From Pyxidicoccus sp. MSG2 (GTDB lineage: Bacteria; Myxococcota; Myxococcia; Myxococcales; Myxococcaceae): a stretch of 64,000 bases of DNA. The notes beneath the pieces were generated by a model. It searched no databases. It was given only the letters and a program-made list of their open reading frames with translations, and was not told where the DNA came from. Of the stretch, positions 4,384 through 54,354 are shown one piece after another (within the stretch, counting starts at the first letter, position 1; each line of letters starts with the position of its first letter). The stretch spans positions 1,240,001 to 1,304,000 of the forward strand of contig NZ_JAPNKC010000001.1 of the NCBI RefSeq assembly GCF_026626705.1. Direction: 5' to 3'. The translations under genes were made by a program, and so were the position numbers.

Positions 4384-7089
4384 CTAGCCGCCGGAACCGA
4401 AGGACCCGAACCCTGCGACGCTGAGGTTGATGCCGCCGAATTCCGGCGTCGAATCCCGGCGTAGGACCATCACCCCTTCAATCCGCCAGCAGTCACACGC
4501 CGGCCCGTACGAGAGGCCGAGAGTCTGCTGGTAGAGGGGTTTTGACTCTTTTGAGGTTGGATCTTCGTACAACGGCTGCACATAGGCTTCGTACCGCACT
4601 CCCAGCCCAAATCCGAGCTTCAAACGCGTACCCGCGATGAGGGTCTGAGCCCGTTCGGCCGGAGGGAGACCGGGCGCTTCGAACGATGCGCTGCCTACCA
4701 GGGTGTCCAGGCGCCGCCGTACGGCATCCGGCCCGACGGCGAGCGGATCAGCGCCCGCGTTGATGGCCGCCCCCGAGGAGGTGAGGTAGTCGTCGAACCG
4801 GGCGTACAGGCCGGAGCCCTTCCCGTTGTCGATGTTGAAGTCCGCGCTGAGCTGGGTGATGCGGCCCGTGTTCGGGTCCATGCGGATCTGCCCGCCCGCC
4901 GTGAGGACGCCCGCCCCGGCGCTCAGGCGCGCGAAGGTGTCCCGCAGCAGGGGGCCCTTCTCGTCGGGGTTTGCGGGGTTGGAGCCCTGACGGGTCAGGT
5001 CGAACCCCTGGCCGATGCGCAGGCGCACGGGCTCCTGCGTGTTCGTGCCCCGCTTGAAGCGCAGCGTCTGGTCCACGGCGAGCACGGCGTGCAGGAAGCC
5101 GCGCGTCCGGCCGTCCGGATGCAGGGGCACCGCGGCGTCCACCTCGTCGTAGAGCTGCGGCGGGCCGTCCTCGGAGCCGCCCACCGTGGGCACCCGCCCC
5201 CACCCACCGGGGACGTAGCGCACCTCCAGCGAGGGGGAGATGGCGTGCCGGTACTTCGCGTCCGCCCTGCCCGACCAGGTGGTGGCGACCTGCGAGTCCA
5301 CCAGCAGTCCGGCAATGGGGTAGCCGCGCTGGAAGGTCCTCCCGGAGACCTCCCCCTTCCAGAGGTCCTGCCGGAGCCCGAGCGAGGGCGTCACGCGCGC
5401 GTAGGAGCCCAGGCCGAAGGAGGTGGACAGCCGGGGGGAGAAGTCCACGCGGTCTCTCGCCTCGCGGTCCGCCGCGTTGAAGAGGCCGTCGGACTGCTGC
5501 GGGTCCTCGGGCCGGGTCCCCGCCTCGGGCGAGGTCCAGGTGGGCGTGTACCTCGCGTCCGGCTGGAAGATGCCGTCGAGGCCTTCATCCCCCAGGCGGC
5601 TGAGGAACGGGGCCAGGCGCGAGTACTCCATCCGCAGTCCGCCCGTGAGCCGGCCCAGCAGCGGGCGCTCGGGCAGGGCGAAGGTGATGCCGGGAAGGCG
5701 CTGGAAGGTGTTGGGGCCCTTCAGCACCGTGCCCGGAGGGGCCTCGAGTGCGAGCGTGGTCGTGGTGGCGTTGTCCGGGATGCGGTCGGTCTGGAAGAAC
5801 CGGTAGCCCCAGCGGATGTCCTGCCGCAGCGACACGTCCATGCCGGCGTAGAGCTCGTCCTCGCGCTTGTAGAGGGCGGCGGTGCTGCGCAGGTACTGGA
5901 ACTCACGAGCGATGATGTCCGCGGTGAGGTCGCGCGTGTAGAAACCATCCGAGACGAACGACGCGTCGACCCGGTCGTACCAGCCGCTGCCCAGCTCCTG
6001 GGTGTGCTGCCAGGACGCCTCGCCGCGCAGGCCGCGCGGCTCGGTGTAGAGGAGCGGGGTCCGCTGTCCATCCACCAGCTGCCGGTAGAACCACGCGTCG
6101 CGAGGATCTCTGACGGGCCGGCTGTCGTAGAGCACGCCCAGCGTGACGCGGCCCCGGGAGTGCTCGCTGGGCACGTAGCGGAACTCGGTGAGCAGGCGCG
6201 GGCCCTCCACGCCGAAGGGGCGCGGCTCCTTGAGGAGCACGTTGCCGCCCTGCGTCCCGTCCGCGTTCTGCAGGCTCGGGTCGTAGATGGCATGGTCCTC
6301 CTGCCCGCCGCCGGTGAAGTAGCCCGGGGTGAGGGTCGTGTCGTAGCTGCGGCCCAGGGTGAAGAAGACGGGCTGCTCCAGGGCGAAGCCGTTGAGGCTG
6401 GAGGTGCTGGGCTTGGGGATGAGCAGGCCCGAGCGCCGCTCCGCCAGCGGCAGGTAGAGCCAGGGCAGCGCGAAGACGGGCACGGAGCGCACATAGACGA
6501 CGGGCCAGCTCAGCGTGGCGCGCTCGCCGAGGACGACGTTGGCGGCGCTGGCCTCCACGCGCCAGCTGGGCTCGCCGGGCCCGCACTCGCACGGGGTGAA
6601 GGCCAGGTCGTCCACGACGAAGGAGTTGGGCCCGGTACGGCGGATGCGCGTCCCGCTGATGATGACGGGCGTCTCCCCCATGGCGCGCAGCTCCTGCGGC
6701 GTCTTCGCCGAGAGCATGGCCTCCAGGGTGACGCCCCGCTTCTGCATGAAGAGGCCGCCCTGGAGGTTGGCCTCGAAGGAGCGGATGTCCACGCGCACGG
6801 AGTCGGCGACGGCGGCCATGCCGCCGGGGCCCACGAACATGACGTTGCCGGAGGCGGTGGCCACCTGGCCGGCCTCGTCGTACGTCACCTCGTCGGCGCG
6901 CAGCAGCATGTCCCCGGTGCGCAGCTCACAGTGGCCGCGCGCGGTGAGGACCTGCTTGTCGGCCTCGTAGGTGACGAAGTCCGCCGCCAGCTCCACCGTC
7001 TCACCGGTGGGCAGCTGCACCTGCGTGGCGAGCGGAATCTGCGCCGACGACACGAGCAGCGCGGCAGCGAGCGGGACGAGGATGCTCAT
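4384..7089 (-). CDS. lptD: LPS-assembly outer membrane protein LptD
   Basis: 901-residue outer-membrane translocon that inserts lipopolysaccharide into the outer leaflet. It begins with a signal peptide ending near ATQVQLP. About residues 25-130 form the periplasmic LptA-like OstA domain (ELAADFVTYEADKQVLTARG). A cysteine pair (PCECGPGE, near residue 168) and a C-terminal pair (PACDCWRIEG) match the disulfide pairs that link the two parts of LptD. The middle and C-terminal parts are the beta-barrel, including the conserved LPWLYLPLAERRSGLLIP segment. It is longer than E. coli LptD (784). No strong Shine-Dalgarno precedes the ATG. The AMIN protein gene lies 45 bases upstream on the same strand, so an envelope operon is likely. 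Confidence 0.92.
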   Translation of the reverse strand: MSILVPLAAALLVSSAQIPLATQVQLPTGETVELAADFVTYEADKQVLTARGHCELRTGDMLLRADEVTYDEAGQVATASGNVMFVGPGGMAAVADSVRVDIRSFEANLQGGLFMQKRGVTLEAMLSAKTPQELRAMGETPVIISGTRIRRTGPNSFVVDDLAFTPCECGPGEPSWRVEASAANVVLGERATLSWPVVYVRSVPVFALPWLYLPLAERRSGLLIPKPSTSSLNGFALEQPVFFTLGRSYDTTLTPGYFTGGGQEDHAIYDPSLQNADGTQGGNVLLKEPRPFGVEGPRLLTEFRYVPSEHSRGRVTLGVLYDSRPVRDPRDAWFYRQLVDGQRTPLLYTEPRGLRGEASWQHTQELGSGWYDRVDASFVSDGFYTRDLTADIIAREFQYLRSTAALYKREDELYAGMDVSLRQDIRWGYRFFQTDRIPDNATTTTLALEAPPGTVLKGPNTFQRLPGITFALPERPLLGRLTGGLRMEYSRLAPFLSRLGDEGLDGIFQPDARYTPTWTSPEAGTRPEDPQQSDGLFNAADREARDRVDFSPRLSTSFGLGSYARVTPSLGLRQDLWKGEVSGRTFQRGYPIAGLLVDSQVATTWSGRADAKYRHAISPSLEVRYVPGGWGRVPTVGGSEDGPPQLYDEVDAAVPLHPDGRTRGFLHAVLAVDQTLRFKRGTNTQEPVRLRIGQGFDLTRQGSNPANPDEKGPLLRDTFARLSAGAGVLTAGGQIRMDPNTGRITQLSADFNIDNGKGSGLYARFDDYLTSSGAAINAGADPLAVGPDAVRRRLDTLVGSASFEAPGLPPAERAQTLIAGTRLKLGFGLGVRYEAYVQPLYEDPTSKESKPLYQQTLGLSYGPACDCWRIEGVMVLRRDSTPEFGGINLSVAGFGSFGSGG

Positions 7090-7134
7090 TCAGGGGCAGG
7101 GTATGCCGCGCCCGGGCCGCGCGGCGTGCCCTTT

Positions 7135-8607
7135 TCAGCGCCCCGTGCGCTGGAAGTCCAACGAAATGACATTGCCCTCCTGGCGGGCCTGGAAGGGCAC
7201 CTGCCCCCGGAGGTTGATGGTGACGCGCACCGCGCGGCCGGACGAGTCCGCCTCCACCCGAGTCACGGGGGAGTTGAAGAAGGACGTGTCCAGCGGGCGG
7301 GTGTTGTTGCTCAGGTCGATGCGGGTGTTCTCCAGCTCCACCACCACCGAGCGGCCATCCTCGCTCGCCGTGTAGCGCACCGGCTCGTTGGTGCGGATGA
7401 ACACGCGGGACACGCCGGACTGCTGCTGGAAGCCGACCAGCGTCATCGTCTTGCGGCGCGAGGACACCTCCACCGAGGCGTCGGAGCCACTGGAGACCTC
7501 GCGGGGGGTCCGCGCGCGCGGCTCCGCCATGGCGAGCTTCTCCTGCTTCGTGCTCTCGCGGGAGGCACGGGCCTGCTCCTGGCGCTGGCGGCGCTCCTCG
7601 GCGGCGGCCTCCTGCTGGGCGCGGCGCTCGTCCGCGGCGGCCTGGGCCGCGGCCTGACGCTCCTCGGCGGCGGCCTGCGCCTGACGCTTCTTCTCGTCGG
7701 CGGCGGCCTGGGCGGCGGCGCGGCGCTCCTCGTCCGTGCTCTTCGCGGCGGCCCGGGCCTCCTCCTGCTGGCGCTTCTTCTCGTCGGCGGCGGCCTGGGC
7801 GGTGGCGCGGGCTTCCTCTTCCTGGCGCTTCTTCTCGTCGGCGGCGGCCTGGGCGGTGGCGCGGGCCTGCTCCTCCTGACGCTTCTTCGCGGCGTCGGCG
7901 TCCGCCTGGGCGGAGGCGCGGGCCTCCTCCTCCTGGCGCTGGGACGCGGCGCGGGCCTCTTCCTGGCGCTTCTTCTCCGCGTCGGCGTCCGCCTGGGCGC
8001 GGGCGGCGGCCTCGGCGGCGGCCTTCTCCTGGGCCTGGCGATCGGCGACAGCCGCGGCGGCGGCCTGGGCAGCGGCCTTCTCCTGGGCCTGACGCTCGGC
8101 CTCGGCGGCCGCGGCGGCCTGGGCGGCGGTGCCGTCCGTGGCGGGCTGCGCGGCGGGCTCGGCGGCGGCGGTCGGCTGGGCGGCCGGGGTCTCCGCGGGC
8201 GCCTGCGCGACGGCCTGGCCGCCCCCGCCCGCCACCTTCACGACGAGCTGGTTGCCGTTGGCCTGGATGTCCGTCTCCACCTCGCGCTCGTAGCCGATGA
8301 GCACGCGGGCGATGGCGGACGCGTCCGAGCCGTAGCTGGCCGTGCGGATGCCCGTCACGGTGCCATTGCCCACCTGGACCTCTTCCGGGACGCCGGAGAA
8401 GACGGCCTCGGAGATGTCGATGACGAGCCGCGGCGGGTCCGTCATGGTGAAGGTGGTGAAGTTGGGCTTCTTCGTGCCGGTGATGGACACGGTGCCGCCA
8501 TTCACCTGCACGGCGGTGATGGTGTTCACGTCCGCCGCCGGAGCTTGCGCGAGCGCCATCACTGGCACGAGCACGACACCGAGCAGCCACACCGCAGAGG
8601 CCTTCAT
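7135..8607 (-). CDS. periplasmic AMIN-domain protein with long Ala-rich coiled coil
   Basis: 490-residue exported protein, start ATG preceded by GGGAGTAGG. Signal peptide about residues 1-20 (VVLVPVMALAQA). About residues 25-125 resemble an AMIN domain, the module that places amidases and PilQ-type secretins at peptidoglycan. Residues about 135-365 are a highly charged A/E/K/R/Q coiled coil made of near-repeats such as ADEKKRQEEEARATAQ. About residues 380-490 form a second AMIN-like beta domain ending in NVISLDFQRTGR. The architecture (AMIN, helical rod, AMIN) suggests a spacer tethering two wall- or membrane-bound sites. It resembles TolA-type rods but has no membrane anchor apart from the signal peptide. 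Exact role unknown; the neighbouring lptD places it in envelope biology. Confidence 0.75.
   Translation of the reverse strand: MKASAVWLLGVVLVPVMALAQAPAADVNTITAVQVNGGTVSITGTKKPNFTTFTMTDPPRLVIDISEAVFSGVPEEVQVGNGTVTGIRTASYGSDASAIARVLIGYEREVETDIQANGNQLVVKVAGGGGQAVAQAPAETPAAQPTAAAEPAAQPATDGTAAQAAAAAEAERQAQEKAAAQAAAAAVADRQAQEKAAAEAAARAQADADAEKKRQEEARAASQRQEEEARASAQADADAAKKRQEEQARATAQAAADEKKRQEEEARATAQAAADEKKRQQEEARAAAKSTDEERRAAAQAAADEKKRQAQAAAEERQAAAQAAADERRAQQEAAAEERRQRQEQARASRESTKQEKLAMAEPRARTPREVSSGSDASVEVSSRRKTMTLVGFQQQSGVSRVFIRTNEPVRYTASEDGRSVVVELENTRIDLSNNTRPLDTSFFNSPVTRVEADSSGRAVRVTINLRGQVPFQARQEGNVISLDFQRTGR
7560..8110. repeat. imperfect repeats coding the Ala/Glu/Lys coiled coil
   Basis: Within the AMIN gene the DNA repeats an alanine- and glutamate-rich unit. 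The clearest tandem copies, around 7769-7876, repeat with a 54-base (18-codon) period, and weaker copies extend on both sides. Translation gives ADEKKRQEEEAR-like units. This is coding repetition, not a CRISPR or insertion sequence. Confidence 0.7.
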
Positions 8608-8707
8608 CGCCTACTCCCGTTCACGTTGACAGAGCCCGGGGATGCTAGCACGCGTCCCCTTCCCTCCAACTTTCCGTCCGGACGGTGCGTCGGCCCCACG
8701 AAGCCCG

Positions 8708-9982
8708 CTACTTCCGCAGGCGCGGGAGGCTGGGCGCGCGACTGCGATGCGTCCGGGCGTACTCGATGAGGTTCTTGATGTCGTAGCAGATCTGCCGGAT
8801 GTCGTGGCCCATCGTCAGCTCGATGTGGCTGTTTCCCTTCACCGGCCGCCAGAGGAGGTACTCGCTCTTCGCCGCGCGGTACACGCTCCGGGTGGACTCC
8901 AGCGAGGCGAGCGGGTCCAGGTCCCCGAAGATGATGGCCATGGGCACTTCGATGCGGCCGAAGCCGCGCTTGAAGTCGAAGCCCGTCCGATAGCAGACCA
9001 TTTCGCCGCGGCGAATCCACCGTGCGAACTGCTCCAGCACCTTGCGCGGCTCGCGCTCGCCACCCTCGCGGAGCAGCCAGCGGATGTCCTCCGCGCTCAC
9101 CCGCTCCGGGTTGATGAGCCGGTTCAGCCGGGTGGTCAGTTGCTGGTAGAGGGGCGAGTCCTCCGCCTTGCCGAGCTGCCGCTCCAGGAACTTGAGGACG
9201 AGGTCCACCGGCATCGCGTTGAAGCGAAGCGTCCGCCGCTCCTGGGGCTGCAGCTTGCGGCCCAACCCCGCGTGCAGGGCCCCCACCCCTCGCGCCAGCA
9301 GCCTGCGGCCGGCGCCTTCCACCTTGCCGCTCACGTTCAGCCCGGCGAGCGTCAGGTCAATCATGCCGCCCAGGAGCGGCGTGCCGTGCGCCAGCAGGCG
9401 CAGCAGCATGAAGCCCCGGCCCAGGTCCGCCGGGGAGCCGATGGTCATCAGCCCTTCGAAGTCGTTGTGGATGCCGGCGTAGCCGTAGCCCAGCATGCCG
9501 CCCATCGAGTGGCCGCAGTAGAAGATGCGCTCGCGGCGGGTGATGCGCTTCACCCCGGAGACGGCCGCCGGCAGGTCGTAGAGGAAGTAGCTGTCGATGT
9601 CCCAGCCGTAGTCCAGGTCCGGAGGCAGGGGGCGCTTGAAGCGCTCGGCGCGCTCCCGCTGGAAGGCGATGGAGCTCTTGCCGTGGCCGCGCAGTTCCAG
9701 GATGTGGATGTCCACCCCGAAGAAGAGCAGGTTCTTCACGAACTGGCCGCTCGTCCACGTGTGCCGGTTCTGCGAGAAGCCGTGCACCAGCAGCAGCGGC
9801 TCACCGAACAGCGGCTGCGGGAAGGGCTGCTTCACCGGACGGTAGCGGGTGATGACCAGCGACCAGCCGTCCGCCGTCTCCACGACGTACTTCGTCTTCG
9901 AGTAAAGCGCCCGGAAGTCGACTTCGTCGATGGTGGGGAAGTGCGGCCCTGGGGTCGCGGCTCTCCAGTCCGGCAGGCGCAT
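8708..9982 (-). CDS. alpha/beta-fold hydrolase
   Basis: 424-residue hydrolase of the lipase/esterase superfamily. Visible motifs are the oxyanion-hole HGFSQN (about residue 66), LRGHGKS, the nucleophile elbow GHSMGG (about residue 157), the acid FGDLDPLA and the catalytic-histidine region GNSHIEL near the C-terminus. A helical insertion of about 130 residues separates the nucleophile from the acid, which makes the protein longer than a minimal esterase. No signal peptide is evident, so it is probably cytoplasmic. It follows folC by 39 bases on the same strand, which may be chance cotranscription. Substrate not inferable; a lipid ester or polyester is possible. Confidence 0.82.
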   Translation of the reverse strand: MRLPDWRAATPGPHFPTIDEVDFRALYSKTKYVVETADGWSLVITRYRPVKQPFPQPLFGEPLLLVHGFSQNRHTWTSGQFVKNLLFFGVDIHILELRGHGKSSIAFQRERAERFKRPLPPDLDYGWDIDSYFLYDLPAAVSGVKRITRRERIFYCGHSMGGMLGYGYAGIHNDFEGLMTIGSPADLGRGFMLLRLLAHGTPLLGGMIDLTLAGLNVSGKVEGAGRRLLARGVGALHAGLGRKLQPQERRTLRFNAMPVDLVLKFLERQLGKAEDSPLYQQLTTRLNRLINPERVSAEDIRWLLREGGEREPRKVLEQFARWIRRGEMVCYRTGFDFKRGFGRIEVPMAIIFGDLDPLASLESTRSVYRAAKSEYLLWRPVKGNSHIELTMGHDIRQICYDIKNLIEYARTHRSRAPSLPRLRK

Positions 9983-11323: not shown

Positions 11324-12181
11324 TCAGCCCAGCAGGCCGAGAATCGTCCCCAGCTTCGTGCGCAGGTCCTTGCGGTGGACGATGCTGTCGATCATCCCGT
11401 GCTCCAGCAGGAACTCCGAGCGCTGGAAGCCCTCGGGCAGCTTCTGGCGGATGGTCTGCTCAATCACGCGCGGGCCGGCGAAGCCGATGAGGGCCTTGGG
11501 CTCGGCGAGCATGACGTCGCCCAGCCACGAGAAGGACGCGGCGACGCCGCCGGTGGTGGGGTTGAGCAGCACGGAGACGTAGGGCCGCGTGCCGGTGCGG
11601 AAGCGCGCAATGGCCGCGGACGTCTTCGCCATCTGCATGAGGGAGAAGATGCCCTCCTGCATGCGCGCGCCGCCGGACGCGGAGAAGATGATGGCGGAGC
11701 ACTTCAGCTCGTGCGCCCGCTCGAAGACGCGCGCCACCTTCTCGCCCACCACCGAGCCCATGGAGCCGCCCATGAACTCGAAGACGAAGCAGCCCACGGA
11801 GACCTGGTGGCCTTCGATGCGGCCCATGCCGGAGACGAAGGCATCCGGCTCACCCAGGCTCTTGCGCGTGGACTTGATGCGGTCCTTGTACTTCTTCGAG
11901 TCGCTGAACCCGAGCGGGTCCTGCGGCTCCAGCTCCTTGTCGAACTCCTCGAAGCTGTCCGGATCCAGCAGCGCGGCCAGACGGGCGCGGGCCGGCCAGT
12001 AGTGGTGGTGCTCGCAGTGCGGGCACACCATCCAGTTCTTCTCCAGGTCCTGCCGATAGAGGATTTCGTCGCAGGTCTCGCACTTCGCCCACAGCCCTTC
12101 CATGCGGGACGGGCGGGACTCGGTTGGCTGCTCGGCTTCGGAGGGGGTGGAGATGCGGGGCTTCTTGGAGAACCAGGCCAT
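11324..12181 (-). CDS. accD: acetyl-CoA carboxylase carboxyltransferase subunit beta
   Basis: 285-residue beta subunit of the carboxyltransferase, which transfers carboxyl from biotin to acetyl-CoA to make malonyl-CoA for fatty-acid synthesis. The N-terminal zinc ribbon (CETC then CPHC, about residues 34-58) marks the bacterial AccD type. The crotonase-like body includes the SASGGARMQEG oxyanion region and the PTTGGVAASF segment. The alpha subunit is not in the window. An inverted repeat AGGCGGG/CCCGCCT lies directly before the start codon, leaving no obvious Shine-Dalgarno. It is followed by folC and preceded by the cAMP phosphodiesterase gene, 68 bases away. Confidence 0.95.
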   Translation of the reverse strand: MAWFSKKPRISTPSEAEQPTESRPSRMEGLWAKCETCDEILYRQDLEKNWMVCPHCEHHHYWPARARLAALLDPDSFEEFDKELEPQDPLGFSDSKKYKDRIKSTRKSLGEPDAFVSGMGRIEGHQVSVGCFVFEFMGGSMGSVVGEKVARVFERAHELKCSAIIFSASGGARMQEGIFSLMQMAKTSAAIARFRTGTRPYVSVLLNPTTGGVAASFSWLGDVMLAEPKALIGFAGPRVIEQTIRQKLPEGFQRSEFLLEHGMIDSIVHRKDLRTKLGTILGLLG

Positions 12182-12249: not shown

Positions 12250-13005
12250 CTACAGCTCGAAGGTGTCACCGAGCTCGAGCACGTCCACCGGCAGCGGCGC
12301 CAGCTCCTTCTTGAGCTGCGCCACGAAGGCCGGCTTGAGGTGGTAGAGCATCACCGAGGCCCCGTTGCGGCGGAACTTCTTCAGCTCCAGCTCCAGCGTG
12401 TGGGGCGTCAGGTGGCCGGAGATGTCCGCGAGCGACTGGAGCTTGTTGGGGAACGAGGTCTCCAGCAGCAACGCCTTGAGGTTCTCCGTCTCGTTGAGCG
12501 CCTTCCAGAGCTTGTCGGTGGGCCCGGTGTCGCCGCTCATGGCGAGGGTGGTCTTCCCGTTGGAGATGATGAAGCCGCAGGACTCCACCGGGTGGCTCAC
12601 CGGCACGCTGCGCACTTTGTAGGGGCCCACCTGGAAGGTGCTGCCCGCGCGGAAGGGCTTGATCTGGAGGACGGGGTTGGCGCGCGTGGGGATGCGCGTG
12701 AAGTCCGGCCACAGCGCGTTGTTGAACATGTTGTCGCGCAGCGCCTTGGTGCACTCGCGCGACGCGTGGATGGTGACCGGCTTTTCCCTGCGGCCGATGA
12801 CCAGGTCCGCCATCAGCGGCAGGTCCTTCACGTGGTCGAAGTGGCTATGGCCCACGAGGATGTGGTCCACGCGGCACAGCTCCTCGAGCGTGAGCGAGCC
12901 CGTCAGCGCACCCGCGTCGAGCGCGAGCACGTCATCGACGAGGAAGCACGTGCTCTTGCACGTGGGAAGCTCGCCGCCGTGGCACCCGAGGACTCGCAGC
13001 TTCAC
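12250..13005 (-). CDS. class II 3',5'-cyclic nucleotide phosphodiesterase (MBL fold)
   Basis: 251-residue metallo-beta-lactamase-fold enzyme of the PDE1/class II cNMP phosphodiesterase type, which hydrolyses cAMP or cGMP to the 5' monophosphate. The di-metal motif HSHFDHVKDLP (HxHxDH, about residue 53) is diagnostic of this class; further ligands are in VSHPVESCGF, MSGDTGPTD and SGHLTP. The length fits family members. The GTG start has GGAG 9 bases upstream and lies one base after the stop of the Crp-like gene, so the two are cotranscribed. Together with the CHASE2 adenylate cyclase gene just upstream this gives cAMP synthesis, binding and removal in one cluster. Cyclic AMP as substrate is inferred from that context. 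Confidence 0.85.
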   Translation of the reverse strand: MKLRVLGCHGGELPTCKSTCFLVDDVLALDAGALTGSLTLEELCRVDHILVGHSHFDHVKDLPLMADLVIGRREKPVTIHASRECTKALRDNMFNNALWPDFTRIPTRANPVLQIKPFRAGSTFQVGPYKVRSVPVSHPVESCGFIISNGKTTLAMSGDTGPTDKLWKALNETENLKALLLETSFPNKLQSLADISGHLTPHTLELELKKFRRNGASVMLYHLKPAFVAQLKKELAPLPVDVLELGDTFEL

Positions 13006-13006
13006 G

Positions 13007-13657
13007 CTAGAGGTCTCCGAACTTCCACTTCATCTCCAGGTATTGGAGATAGTCGTGGAGTCTGGCCGTGTCATACACGGTCAGTCTGTCAGGGCCGCGC
13101 TCGATGAGCCCGGCCCGCTCCAGCTTGTCCAACATGCTTCGCACCGCGGGCTCCCCCACGCCGAGCTGCCGGGGCATCTCGCGCACCATGAAGTCGATCT
13201 CCACGCCCTCGTCCGTGGGGCGGCCGCGCGTCAGGGCGGCCTGGAGGATCTGGTGCACGACGCGGCTGGCGGGGTCGTGGTGGAGCAGGTTCTCGATCTG
13301 CGCGTCGGCCTCGGAGAGGCGCTCGGCCAGCTTCTTGATCATCCGGACGGCGATTTCGGCGTTGCCGCGGATCATCCCCTCGAACGTCTTGGGGTCGATG
13401 ACCAGCAGGCGCGCGTCGTCCTGGACCATGGCGGACGCGTTGCGGGGCTTGTTGGAGATGATGGCCATCTCCCCGAAGAACTCGCCGGGGCCGAGCACCG
13501 CGAGGACCTTCTCCACGTCGCGCACGCGCTTGGAGATGGACACCCTGCCCGCCTGGATGACGTACATTTCCTTCCCGGTCTCTCCCTCGCGGAAGAGCTC
13601 GGTACCTTTGGGGAATTCCTTCCCGAAGCGTTGAAAGAGTGTTTCCTCGGCGCCCAT
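13007..13657 (-). CDS. Crp/Fnr-family cyclic-nucleotide-binding regulator
   Basis: 216-residue regulator. About residues 5-125 are a cNMP-binding domain with the phosphate-binding cassette FGEMAIISNKPRNASA, which keeps the E and R that contact the cyclic phosphate and ribose. About residues 145-212 form the winged HTH, with a recognition helix in the QLGVGEPAVRSMLDKLERAGLI segment. The ATG at 13657 is chosen; an in-frame TTG 15 bases upstream is an alternative. The position between an adenylate cyclase and a cAMP phosphodiesterase makes cAMP the likely ligand. No palindromic Crp-type site is obvious nearby. The DNA targets are unknown. Confidence 0.88.
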   Translation of the reverse strand: MGAEETLFQRFGKEFPKGTELFREGETGKEMYVIQAGRVSISKRVRDVEKVLAVLGPGEFFGEMAIISNKPRNASAMVQDDARLLVIDPKTFEGMIRGNAEIAVRMIKKLAERLSEADAQIENLLHHDPASRVVHQILQAALTRGRPTDEGVEIDFMVREMPRQLGVGEPAVRSMLDKLERAGLIERGPDRLTVYDTARLHDYLQYLEMKWKFGDL

Positions 13658-13736
13658 CCTGCGAGGAGTCAATCAGCCCCCACCCCCCCGGTCAAATATC
13701 CTTGCTGTGAGCCGCGTGTGGGACAGCGCGTACGAC

Positions 13737-16115
13737 CTATTTGGTCGTGGCGGTGAAGACGCCGTCCCAGTCCGGTCCCGGGGGCAGCATGCGGTAGGCG
13801 GCGGCGGCCTCCGCGTAGCGCAGCGAGGGAACATCTTCCGGCCAGAGCTCGAGCGTGCGGCGGAAGAGGACCTGCGCGGTCTCCCAGTCGCGCGCGATGA
13901 AGCGGTCCACCCCTTCTTCGAAGAGCCGGATGGCCTCCGCGTCCGTGCCGGTAGCGCGGCCCATGGCGCGCAATTCGTAGATGGCGCCGGGCTCCTGTTT
14001 GCCCTTCACGCGCACGGCGCCGAGGCGGCGGGCGATGACGTGCTCCTTCACCTGGAGGTACGTGCCCTCGGAGACGAGGACGCGGGTGCCGTACTCCTTG
14101 TTGAGCCCCTCCAGTCGCGAGGCGAGATTCACCGCGTCGCCCATGACGGTGTAGTTGAAGCGCGACTCGGTGCCCATGTGGCCCACGTTCATCGGGCCGG
14201 TGTTGATGCCCACGCCGATGTCGACCTCGGGCAGGCCCTCGGCGCGCCAGCGGACCTTGAGCGCCTGGAGTTTGTCGAGGAAGCCCAGCGCCGCGCGGCA
14301 GGCGCGCAGCGCGTGGTCCGGCTGGTCCACCGGCGCGCCCCAGAAGCACATGATGGCGTCACCGATGTACTTGTCGAGCGTGCCCCCGTGCGCGAACACC
14401 ACGCCCGTCATCGGCGTGAGGTACTGGTTGATGAAGGTGACCAGCCCCTCGGGGGACATGCGCTCGGACAGCGAGGTGAAGCCTCGGATGTCGGAGAAGA
14501 GGACGGTGAGCTCCTTGCGCTCACCGCCCAGCTTGAGGCGCTCGGGGTGCTCCAGCACCTGCTCCATGACGCTGGCGTCCAGGTAGTGCTGGAAGGTGTG
14601 GCGCAGGCGCCCCTTCTCCTGGTCCACGGTGCGGTAGCCCAGGAAGAGCACGCCGAACGCGGACGTGAAGAGCGACAGCATGGGCACCACGGTGGCCACC
14701 TGGATGCCCCGGACGAAGAGGACCTGGTCCACGGTGAGCCACGCGGCGGCCAATAGCGCCACCGTGCCCAGCTTCCACGTGTAGCGCACGCGAGGCAGCA
14801 GCCGGGCCAGCAGCACCGCCGTGCCCACCATGAAGAGCAGCTCCAGGCTGATGAGCCCCTCGGGCCTCGTGAGGTAGTCCTCGGAGAGGATGTTGGAGAG
14901 GAACGCGGCGTGGGCGTAGACGCCGGGCTCGAACTCCTTGAAGGGCGTGACGCGCTGGTCGTAGTTGCCCAGCAGGGTGATGCCCACCAGCACCGCCCTG
15001 CCCTCCACGCGCGCCTTCAGGTCCTCGGACTTGAACTTCTCCTTCAGCACGTCCGCGATGCTCAGCCGGTCGAAGGCGCTGCCGGGGCCGGGGTAGTTGA
15101 TGAGCGTGAAGGGCTCCGCCAGGGGAATGGGCACGAAGCGCTGCACGCCCCCGGCCGAGCGCAGGCGGGCCCCGGAGAGGTGGCCCGAGTCCGGGTCGAA
15201 CACCGGCTCCACCTCCGCATTCAGCGCCGCCGCCGCGGTCTGCACGCTGAGGGACGGCAGGAAGCCACCGGGGCCCTCCAGCTTCGCGAAGACGGGCAGC
15301 CGGCGGAGGATGCCGTCCGGGTCCATGGCCGCGCTGAAGTGGCCGAGCCGCCGGCTGGCCCGGGCCAGCTCCGACAGCGGGAGCTGGGCGGAGTAGTTGC
15401 GCCAGCCGGGCACGTTGGCGGGCTTCACCTCGAAGAAGGCGCCGGGCGCGGTCCCGGGGAAGCGGCGCAGGAGGTGGGGCTCCAGCAGCGCGGCCCACTC
15501 GGCCTCGCGGGGGGCGAACTGCTTCTGCTCCTTGTCGGTGTAGACCATGACGCCCTGGACCACGCCGGGAGAGCCGGCGAGGACGGCGGCCAGGGACTCG
15601 TCGCGAGAGGACGCGGCCCGGGCGGACAGCTCGGCCCGGTAGCCCTCGAGCGCGGGGGCCAGCTGCGGCGACTCCGCCAGGGTGCGGTCGAGGGCGCCCA
15701 GGGCCTCTGCCCACACGCGGGTGTCCTCCTCGCGGGCCTCGTCGGTGAAGATGATGTCCAGGCCCACGGCGGCGGCGCCCGCCTGCTGGAGCCGGGCCAC
15801 GGCGAGCGCCACGGTGTCCCGGGGCCACGGCCAACGCCCGTGGGCCTGGGCGCTCTTCTCGTCCACCTCCACCACGAGCACCCTGGAATTGGGGGCGCGT
15901 GTGCCCCGCAGGAGGAACTGGAGGTCGGTGGCCTTGCCCTCCAGCAAGTGGATGCCCCGGATGAGCAGCGGGGCGTCTTCTTCACTTCCCGCCACGAGCC
16001 CCACGACGGGCGTGCGTTCCACCCACACGTGGAGGGCGCAGGAGGCGGCGGCGAGCGCCAGGGCGAGCAGCTCGAAGCGGCGGCGCGAGAGGAAGGAGGT
16101 CATCCCGGAGGGCAT
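13737..16115 (-). CDS. CHASE2-domain membrane adenylate cyclase (class III)
   Basis: 792-residue membrane sensor-cyclase. TM1 is near residues 10-30, a periplasmic CHASE2 sensor domain follows to about 400, then three membrane helices at about 422-492. The class III cyclase domain covers about 530-710. It has both metal aspartates (FSDIRGF and [10 protein letters not shown]), the adenine-selecting Lys in GTLDKYIGD with its Asp partner in TVMGDAVN, and the transition-state Asn/Arg in NLASRLEG, so ATP rather than GTP is the expected substrate. A C-terminal helical TPR-like tail follows. Start codon uncertain (16115 or 16103). It is transcribed toward the Crp-like and phosphodiesterase genes. 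The signal sensed is unknown. The divergent purM starts 72 bases away. Confidence 0.9.
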
Positions 16116-16187: not shown

Positions 16188-17225
16188 GTGGGAACGACCT
16201 ACAAGCAGTCCGGAGTGGACATCGAGGCCGGCGACGCGTTCGTCGAGCGAATCAAACCCCATGCCGCGCGCACCATGCGCCCCGAGGTGTTGGCCGGGGT
16301 GGGTGGCTTCGGTGGCCTGTTCGCCCTGCCACCGGGCAAGTACAAGGAACCGGTGCTGGTGGCCGGCACGGACGGGGTGGGCACCAAGCTGAAGGTGGCC
16401 TTCGCCGCGGGGCGCCACGGCACGGTGGGCATCGACCTCGTCGCCATGTCGGTGAACGACATCCTCACCTGCGGCGCCGAGCCCCTGTTCTTCCTCGACT
16501 ACTTCGCCACCGGCCGCCTGGAGGTGGACGCGGCCGCCGAGGTGGTGAAGGGCATCGCCCTGGGCTGCGAGCAGGCCGGGTGCGCGCTGCTGGGTGGCGA
16601 GACGGCGGAGATGCCGGGCTTCTACGCGCGGGGCGAGTACGACCTGGCGGGCTTCTGCGTGGGCGTGGTGGAGCGCTCGGCCATCATCGACGGCAAGAGC
16701 GTGAAGCCCGGTGACGCACTCATCGGCCTCACCTCCTCCGGCCTGCACAGCAACGGCTACTCGCTGGCGCGCAAGGTGCTGCTGGACGACGCGAAGCTGT
16801 CGCTGGACTCGACGCCCGAGGGACTCGACAGGCCGCTCGGCGACGCGCTGCTGGAGCCCACGCGCATCTACGTGAAGGACGCGCTGGCGCTGTGCCAGGC
16901 GGTGAAGGTGAAGGGCATGGCCCACATCACCGGCAGCGGCATTCCAGGCAACCTGCCCCGGTGCATGCCGGACGGCACGCGCGCGGTGCTGAGCGAGAAG
17001 GCGTGGACGAAGCCGCCCATCTTCGACCTCATCGCGAAGCGCGGAGGCGTGGCCCGGGACGAGATGTTCAACACGTTCAACATGGGCCTGGGCCTCATCG
17101 TCGTGGTGGCGAAGGAGGACGTGGCGCAGGCGCTGAGCGTGCTGAAGGCGCGCGGCGTGGAGGCCACCGAGGTGGGCCGCATTGAGGCCGGTGAGGGCGA
17201 GGCCACGGCGGTCATCGAGCCATGA
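16188..17225 (+). CDS. purM: phosphoribosylformylglycinamidine cyclo-ligase (AIR synthetase)
   Basis: 345 residues, matching the standard PurM length when the GTG at 16188 is used; AGAAGG stands 6 bases before it. PurM closes FGAM to aminoimidazole ribotide with ATP in purine synthesis. Motifs visible are the N-terminal [12 protein letters not shown], the conserved GTDGVGTKL loop, [20 protein letters not shown], the [16 protein letters not shown] segment and GLIVVV near the C-terminus. The frame is open far upstream but that part is antisense to the cyclase gene. The stop overlaps purN by ATGA, so the two are coupled. Confidence 0.96.
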
Positions 17226-54095: not shown

Positions 54096-54166
54096 TGGGG
54101 AATCGTCTAACGGCAGGACAGCAGACTCTGACTCTGCTTATCTAGGTTCGAATCCTAGTTCCCCAG
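54096..54166 (+). tRNA. tRNA-Gln (anticodon CTG)
   Basis: Cloverleaf folds by eye: acceptor stem TGGGGAA/TTCCCCA, anticodon stem GCAGA/TCTGC with loop CTCTGAC (anticodon at 54128-54130), and a T-arm TAGG-TTCGAAT-CCTA. Discriminator G; 3' CCA is not encoded. Reads CAG. Confidence 0.93.
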
Positions 54167-54213
54167 CTCGCAGCACCCGGCAGTCCGAAGCAACCAGCAG
54201 CACGAAGGAATGG

Positions 54214-54242
54214 TTGACGAGGGCGGACGGAAAATGTAGGAA
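54214..54242 (+). promoter_or_regulatory. possible tRNA-Glu promoter
   Basis: TTGACG, a 17-base spacer and TAGGAA, 34 bases before the tRNA. The stretch TAGGAAGCAGCCGCAGTTAG is nearly the same as that before tRNA-Gln, which suggests the same promoter class. Confidence 0.5.
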
Positions 54243-54276
54243 GCAGCCGCAGTTAGCACCGGTTGAAACAGTGTCT

Positions 54277-54348
54277 GGCCCTGTCGTCTAGTGGTTAGGA
54301 CGGAGCCCTCTCACGGCTCAAACTCGGGTTCGAATCCCGGCAGGGTCA
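54277..54348 (+). tRNA. tRNA-Glu (anticodon CTC)
   Basis: Acceptor stem GGCCCTG/CAGGGTC (one G-T pair), D-arm with GTCTAGTGGTTAGGAC, anticodon stem GAGCC/GGCTC with loop CTCTCAC (anticodon at 54310-54312), T-arm CGGGTTCGAATCCCG. Discriminator A; CCA not encoded. Reads GAG. Confidence 0.95.
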
Positions 54349-54354
54349 CTGAGA

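Follow-up and report, generated by a model that had tools for sequence, protein, structure and literature searches.

Loci that place a cyclic AMP (cAMP) cyclase next to a Crp-like receptor are known: cyaD1-clr-spdA of Sinorhizobium meliloti, as described in the accessible parts of PMC4222275 and PMC13001267, groups a phosphodiesterase-like gene with those for a CHASE2 cyclase and a Crp-like receptor. The receptor, Clr, is a transcription factor that has its own cognate site. The phosphodiesterase-like protein encoded beside cyaD1 and clr belongs to class III, and the available text of PMC4222275 credits it with action on 2',3'-cAMP and no detectable 3',5'-cAMP activity, so that genomic location is no proof of phosphodiesterase function. 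A locus of this kind is analyzed here in a 64,000-nucleotide stretch of the Pyxidicoccus sp. MSG2 genome (contig NZ_JAPNKC010000001.1, positions 1,240,001 to 1,304,000; "the window" denotes this whole stretch). In contrast to the S. meliloti locus, its enzyme is of class II and its Crp-like protein is without the canonical recognition helix. Such loci thus have a precedent in S. meliloti; what is new here is the class II enzyme, the breadth of occurrence and the unconserved recognition helix. A literature search, made largely without subscription papers, returned no paper on this pair of genes among its top-ranked matches.

Two other described systems resemble this one in coupling a Crp-type protein to a phosphodiesterase. 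Bdellovibrio Bd1971, in the available part of PMC6717892, has a Crp-type cyclic-nucleotide-binding (cNMP) domain that switches a phosphodiesterase, but it is a single protein and the target is an EAL enzyme acting on cyclic di-GMP (c-di-GMP); in the present system receptor and enzyme are separate proteins, and the former is proposed to control the latter. Binding of the Crp-like protein Clp of Lysobacter stimulates the phosphodiesterase LchP (accessible text of PMC11139211); in that case the nucleotide is c-di-GMP, and Clp acts as a transcription factor as well.

The window locus is read here, with a probability of roughly 0.5, as a two-gene module of a Crp-fold receptor and a class II phosphodiesterase with an optional cyclase, in which the receptor would act by protein contacts and not on DNA. 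The pair would be transcribed from its own promoter in most lineages, many of which appear to keep an adjacent CHASE2 membrane cyclase that would feed it. This cyclase, judging from its domains, would make cAMP on a periplasmic cue (other cyclases supplying the signal where it is absent), and the phosphodiesterase would remove the cAMP. The Crp-like protein would bind the nucleotide but probably no longer recognize DNA sequence, its winged helix having turned scaffold, and would pass the signal on by protein contacts of a conserved C-terminal helix. The phosphodiesterase, usually co-encoded, would be a likely though not exclusive partner. In two or three related families transcriptional feedback would come from a different, canonical Crp acting at a site before the pair's promoter. 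The features referred to are these:

13737..16115, minus strand: CHASE2 plus class III nucleotide cyclase, membrane-bound, 792 aa (ATG start at 16115; PF05226 and PF00211)
13007..13657, minus strand: Crp-like cyclic-nucleotide-binding protein, 216 aa (ATG start; TTG at 13672 is the alternative)
12250..13005, minus strand: class II (metallo-beta-lactamase-fold) cyclic-nucleotide phosphodiesterase, 251 aa (GTG start; PF02112)
13667..13695, minus strand: promoter-like element just before the Crp-like gene (TTGAC conservation)
13010..13072, minus strand: conserved C-terminal segment of the Crp-like protein, residues 196-216 (model and conservation)
11324..12181, minus strand: accD, outside the proposed module (TIGR00515, 396.6 bits against a cut-off of 317.45)

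The Crp-like and phosphodiesterase genes as a linked pair

An earlier note on this DNA had placed the three genes in a row on one strand with the last two one base apart, and the coordinates confirm both statements: all three are on the minus strand, the Crp-like stop codon ends at 13007 and the GTG of the phosphodiesterase is at 13005. Between the cyclase stop and the Crp-like start lie 64 bp (TTG) or 79 bp (ATG), an interval that contains the conserved promoter-like element; the ATG at 13657 is the likelier start. Searches covered 195 genomes belonging to the phylum. Of these, 152 have a match to the phosphodiesterase (E<=1e-15) and 156 one to the Crp-like protein (E<=1e-30); 147 carry both, 14 carry one alone and 34 neither. 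(Phosphodiesterase matches of 34% identity in G143-G145 are counted as present, though they are probably not orthologs.) The loci read, 110 in number (L001-L110), represent 108 distinct genomes of the 152 phosphodiesterase-positive ones; 30 come from the phosphodiesterase search and 80 were selected, two being repeats. L091 and L092, from the same genomes as L030 and L029, are excluded from the tree and the TTGAC count and retained in the linkage counts, alignments and Crp-type site count. A Crp-like gene lies on the same strand within 1.2 kb upstream of the phosphodiesterase in 103 of the 110 loci (101 of 108 distinct genomes), and in 71 of these 103 the distance from the Crp-like stop to the phosphodiesterase start is -4 to +4 bp. 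The loci without an upstream Crp-like gene are L038, L047, L058, L071, L079, L083 and L084.

Association extends beyond the phylum. In a scan of named genomes that yielded at least 556 relatives of the phosphodiesterase, of which the best 80 were kept, two Nitrospirae contigs (L138 and L154) have the order Crp-like, CHASE2-cyclase, phosphodiesterase, accD; in L138 all three proteins are confirmed by Pfam matches, in L154 the cyclase. Retention of the trio by chance is unlikely, given its different order there. The association of the three genes is conserved in Myxococcota and beyond, and the linkage is real and old. The same scan brought up L118 (BNCN01000003.1, titled Comamonas sp. KCTC 72670), which is 87-90% identical to the window's Crp-like protein and phosphodiesterase and probably mislabelled.

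Assignment of the enzyme to the class II phosphodiesterase family, also made in the earlier note, is borne out by its PDEase_II match (PF02112, 52.0 bits against a curated cut-off of 23.7), the only match to this family in its own genome (E<=0.01). Its structural model has a predicted local distance difference test score (pLDDT) of 97.9, and the nearest fold is that of yeast PDE1 (4ojv; E 1.1e-16, template modelling score 0.83 on the query). Yeast PDE1 also comes first in the profile search (E 2e-15), in whose alignment the two share the FN..WPD and GHL.P segments; best match in both respects, it differs in length (369 aa against 251). YhfI (6kns) is the second match in both searches. Rv1339 and YhfI are atypical class II enzymes according to the available text of PMC9293780, and in that sense near relatives in kind; the same source gives HXHLDH as the typical class II motif and [T/S]HXHXDH as the atypical one. 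The window enzyme, bacterial and encoded beside a Crp-like receptor, has HSHFDH where the typical motif has HXHLDH, and its full GHSHFDH is an exact match to neither signature. The core of the motif is nearly invariant in 110 sequences (H53 in 109, H55 in 109, D57 in 110, H58 in 110) and the flanking columns vary: F in 74 and L in 22 at the typical-L position, and T in 46, G in 39 and S in 25 at the atypical T/S position. Identity with Myxococcus xanthus PdeA or PdeB was considered and dropped, as the accessible part of PMC4222275 treats those as class III enzymes.

The phosphodiesterase has a second steady neighbor. accD lies 68 bp downstream and is adjacent in several phyla; in eight records from Zetaproteobacteria and Bacteriovoracia (L149, L172, L184, L185, L159, L164, L179 and L188, among the best 80 of at least 556 relatives) phosphodiesterase and accD stand together and no Crp-like gene was detected. 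The enzyme might on this account be a housekeeping hydrolase belonging with accD and folC, its proximity to the Crp-like and cyclase genes stable but incidental, and the S. meliloti enzyme, which at a cyclase-Clr locus acts on 2',3'-cAMP and not on 3',5'-cAMP (PMC4222275, as far as its available text goes), lends this some color. Against it stand the Nitrospirae trio in another order and loci such as L064, L065 and L069, which keep the Crp-like gene with the phosphodiesterase and in which no accD was detected in the vicinity; such an explanation is highly improbable.

Conservation and its loss within the Crp-like protein

The nucleotide-binding part of the Crp-like protein is well preserved. 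Its cNMP_binding domain is recognized at E 1.1e-23, and the phosphate-binding cassette (FGEMAI..KPRNAS) that the earlier note had called intact is indeed so, and near-invariant: among 103 orthologs G62, E63 and A74 are kept in all and R72 in 102. With the cAMP receptor proteins of E. coli (CRP) and M. tuberculosis and with GlxR it shares the cNMP domain, the dimer helix and the winged helix. It differs from them in a recognition helix that is weakly conserved and without the canonical R, E and R, and in an additional C-terminal helix.

Pairwise identity brings this out. In a mostly distant set of 51 sequences (the window protein and 50 rows of more than 190 aa from L031-L090) it is 63% for the cNMP domain, 70% for the dimer helix, 29% for the winged helix, 33% for the core of the helix-turn-helix (HTH) and 52% for the C-terminal tail; omitting the own-family rows L087-L090 changes little (63, 70, 30, 35 and 54%). 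Two other Crp-family proteins of the same genome served as controls, each aligned with relatives from the phylum (20 rows plus query, with five own-family rows for the first and one for the second). The first, which we take to be MrpC-like, has identities of 64% (cNMP domain), 70% (dimer helix), 76% (winged helix) and 95% (HTH core); the second, whose relatives mostly carry SRETVSR, has 61, 71, 61 and 68%. In the Crp-like protein, then, the recognition helix ranks with the parts that vary most, and in both controls the order is the opposite. Where a canonical recognition helix has R, E and R, the 103 orthologs have chiefly E (57), P (55) and E (30), compared with R in 21, E in 21 and R in 19 (K in 2) of the 21 sequences of the second control. 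The tendency holds within the family to which the window belongs (f1): 52 Crp-like sequences are 85% identical in the cNMP domain, 64% in the winged helix and 85% in the tail, compared with 74% (cNMP domain) and 89% (winged helix) for six sequences of the first control. Among the 27 close relatives in L001-L030 that have 216 codons, the ratio of nonsynonymous to synonymous polymorphism (pN/pS) is 0.51 for the winged helix, 0.14 for the cNMP domain, 0.07 for the dimer helix and 0.21 for the tail. The transcription-factor role implied by the earlier note's word "regulator" is made doubtful by the weak conservation of the recognition helix and the missing canonical residues.

The tail is conserved where the recognition helix is not. 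The model of the Crp-like protein (mean pLDDT 85.7) retains the winged helix and adds a helix at residues 197-213; the full-length matches listed to solved Crp proteins end at residue 189-202, so that the tail lies largely beyond them. Residues L204 and L207 are each kept in 98 of 103 orthologs, residue F213 in 92 and residue G214 in 96. Reduced genomes of the same family (G143-G145, 2.1-2.7 Mb) retain the Crp-like gene and have three class III cyclase domains each; in two of these loci, those read (L197 and L198), neither cyclase nor phosphodiesterase was detected beside the Crp-like gene. The receptor outlasts the rest of the circuit there. This opens a broader, tentative proposal that we would hold more probably wrong than right: that throughout the phylum these Crp-fold cAMP receptors dropped DNA recognition and would switch the phosphodiesterase and at least one further partner through the C-terminal helix, in the manner of protein kinase A regulatory subunits, being kept in 2.1-2.7 Mb genomes that have neither cyclase nor phosphodiesterase at the locus.

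A number of observations weigh against a receptor that works by protein contacts. Of 20 orthologs, 18 still match HTH_Crp_2 (E<=0.01; best 3.2e-10). Conservation of the HTH core within the family reaches 69%, so that DNA binding may persist in a lineage-specific form. The first control, with its 95% conserved HTH core, is itself without the canonical Glu and second Arg (SRSFVST); absence of residues alone therefore proves nothing and, that control keeping only the first Arg, lost conservation speaks more than lost residues. Distant members of the second control are only 37-45% identical to the query and may not be strict orthologs. The pN/pS of 0.21 for the tail is computed on a pS that is itself unusually low (0.15 compared with ~0.34), and the predicted template modelling score of the model is low (0.54). 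The net charge of the winged helix (-0.2) is not distinctive beside those of the controls (-1.0 and +1.7); it was dropped as a mark of lost DNA binding because one control is more negative and it is thus not decisive. Fusions of Crp-like protein and phosphodiesterase, suggested by open frames of 405-520 aa, number zero in the 110 loci on frame and stop analysis. The tail is kept in L206, L207 and L208, whose genomes have no phosphodiesterase match (E<=1e-15), so that the phosphodiesterase is not its only partner, if it is a partner at all, and the candidate of a sole partner is correspondingly weakened. Finally, of 17 genomes without a class III cyclase match, seven retain the Crp-like protein, and in five the phosphodiesterase accompanies it.

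The first two of these observations, the Crp fold itself and the conservation of the sequence upstream of the Crp-like gene among close relatives would fit a cAMP-dependent transcription factor of lineage-varying DNA specificity that controls the cluster or other genes, with cyclase and phosphodiesterase setting the level of cAMP. Against such a factor stands the pattern of conservation: among distant sequences the HTH core and the winged helix of the Crp-like protein vary most, unlike those of the two controls, and within the family as well the winged helix (64%) falls behind the cNMP domain (85%). Moreover, the canonical contact residues are mostly gone, the HTH_Crp_2 match of the window protein (24.8 bits) is below the curated cut-off of 27, one Crp-like protein from Nitrospirae is without an HTH match at E<=0.01, and in the window's own family no Crp-type site (TGTGA-N6-TCACA with at least 8 of 10 positions) precedes the Crp-like gene in any of 54 loci, two duplicates included. 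A transcription factor is regarded as unlikely. If the Crp-like protein indeed does not read DNA, a widespread bacterial cAMP effector would have been hidden under the name of a transcription factor, and cAMP output in these bacteria would not be readable from Crp regulons alone. With a clean pair and natural relatives that have no cyclase or no phosphodiesterase, the question is directly testable.

The identity of the ligand bears on the preferred reading in another way. The 17 genomes just mentioned have no class III cyclase match (PF00211) at E<=1e-5; other cyclase classes were not searched for. Both genes are present in G042, G043, G045, G051 and G052 and the Crp-like gene alone in G031 and G032; G042 and G045 are 99% complete, G031 and G032 100%, and the latter two have no PF00211 match even at E<=0.001. 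In such genomes the ligand may come from another class of cyclase or be another nucleotide. In the pocket itself, residues 117-118 (window 13304-13309) are a near-invariant Ala117-Asp118 (100 and 94 of 103), at positions that by our pairing presumably correspond to the adenine-contacting Thr-Ser of E. coli CRP; with Ala-Asp in their place, ligand choice may differ. Apyc1, a metallo-beta-lactamase-fold enzyme that degrades several cyclic nucleotides, is at rank 18 in the fold search with the phosphodiesterase. All this could be accommodated if the ligand were not, or not only, cAMP and the cyclase a partner of convenience in some lineages. On the other hand, the ATP-type Lys and Thr are present in 58 of 59 locus cyclases (the other row is gapped), and the phosphodiesterase is commoner in genomes with a class III cyclase (147 of 178) than in those without (5 of 17; Fisher 9e-6, kinship ignored). 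A different ligand is quite improbable.

Patchy occurrence of the cyclase

The window cyclase answers to its description in the earlier note, as a CHASE2 adenylate cyclase with all catalytic residues, as far as domains and residues indicate. It matches CHASE2 (PF05226, E 1.6e-50) and Guanylate_cyc (PF00211, E 8.9e-26), and has all six class III catalytic positions, D542, K582, D586, T656, N663 and R667. The loci read supplied 59 cyclase rows (one genome counted twice), in which the first four positions are identical in 58, the remaining row being gapped; N663 is kept in 58 (one H) and R667 in 59. In L067, L073, L074 and L080 the cyclase is 1.8-3.2 kb away from the Crp-like gene.

The cyclase is much more scattered than the pair. 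It is matched (E<=1e-85) in 93 of the 195 genomes; the other 102 have no match at this threshold anywhere in the genome. Within the genus only 5 of 27 genomes have it, compared with 27 of 27 for the Crp-like protein and phosphodiesterase, so that the refutation named in the earlier note, a lack of joint conservation, fails for the pair (101 of 108) and applies in part to the cyclase. Where present it is local: in 38 of 39 positive genomes of the family the best cyclase match is, by coordinates, beside the Crp-like gene. (In G154 the two are on separate contigs, the Crp-like gene at a contig edge.) Cyclase at the locus is seen, among the matches listed, in the named records of Pyxidicoccus fallax, P. 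caerfyrddinensis, Citreicoccus inhibens and Hyalangium versicolor; also among the matches listed, Myxococcus llanfair..., Archangium lansinium and Corallococcus carmarthensis have none in the upstream stretch read.

Mapped on a family tree (54 Crp-like plus phosphodiesterase sequences), the presence and absence of the cyclase requires at least 5 changes, forced by the starred branches (G109, absent from the E<=1e-85 list, is scored as positive from a partial match at a contig edge, L087). Both outgroup rows carry the cyclase, which makes repeated loss the simpler reading of these sequences, though the tree cannot separate gain from loss. L203 retains a 23-residue cyclase remnant upstream of the Crp-like gene, and in L201 only ~120 bp separate purM from the Crp-like gene. 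L203 and L204, close relatives without the cyclase, have ~4 kb between purM and the Crp-like gene; in L204 this region (5840-9486) contains two open frames (466 and 769 aa), neither of which was similar to the cyclase in the search carried out.

The genome of Pyxidicoccus sp. MSG2 has 19 class III cyclase domains (18 besides this one) and 28 cNMP-binding domains. The self-contained local circuit of the earlier note does not survive this, the cyclase being optional, other cyclases many, and the pair provided with a promoter-like element of its own. A second cyclic-nucleotide cluster of the same genome (L191; G000:C1:11756531-11759981) comprises the genome's best-scoring class III cyclase domain, a same-strand protein whose cNMP domain is C-terminal, and, in divergent orientation, a Crp-like gene that matches HTH_Crp_2 well.

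Upstream sequence and neighboring genes

The promoter-like element before the Crp-like gene consists of TTGACC (13695-13690), 17 nt ending in TGA, and TTGACT (13672-13667). TTGAC occurs at -80 to -20 of the Crp-like start in 85 of 101 distinct loci; before the phosphodiesterase it occurs in 5 of 108 loci, and the rate in random windows of 60 bp is 3.1%. It is about as common where the cyclase is adjacent (43 of 48) as where it is not (42 of 48), and is absent in the 5 loci in which the cyclase ends less than 45 bp away. A consensus promoter scan does not list the window element, because its second hexamer is far from TATAAT; it is not a textbook promoter. From this distribution the pair seems to have its own promoter in most lineages and is probably read through from the cyclase in a few.

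Sites of Crp type, as defined above, occur in 1.4% of random windows. Family f2 has them before the Crp-like gene at 7 of 9 loci (one of them, in L050, poorly symmetric), f3 at 4 of 15 and f7 at the single locus read; the 2 in 24 loci of the remaining families are apparently unrelated. For the window's own family, autoregulation through a Crp-type palindrome was rejected in view of the 54 loci without a site. The exact sequence TGTGA-N6-TCACG occurs 10 times in the f2 genome G023 (5.2 Mb), once at the pair, and its reversed control not at all; over 12 f2 genomes there are 56 copies and 8 of the control, with single genomes such as G021 and G025 not above control. SRETV(S/N)R is present in the nine retrieved f2 copies of the second control regulator, and six of these come from genomes that have the Crp-type site. 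The natural reading of these motifs is that in f2-like families a canonical Crp would control the pair, feedback passing through another protein. Six f2 loci (L047, L048, L049, L050, L056 and L061) have a second, diverged Crp-type gene (25-27% identity) between the phosphodiesterase and accD.

Beyond accD in the window come a folC-like gene (with Mur ligase domains) and then an alpha/beta hydrolase gene. Upstream of the cyclase, and divergent from it, is a purM-like gene (GTG start at 16188), and L197 has a purN-like gene near its Crp-like gene; both pur labels are presumptive. Elsewhere in the window, genes for tRNA-Gln(ctg) and tRNA-Glu(ctc) stand in tandem on the plus strand (54096-54349).

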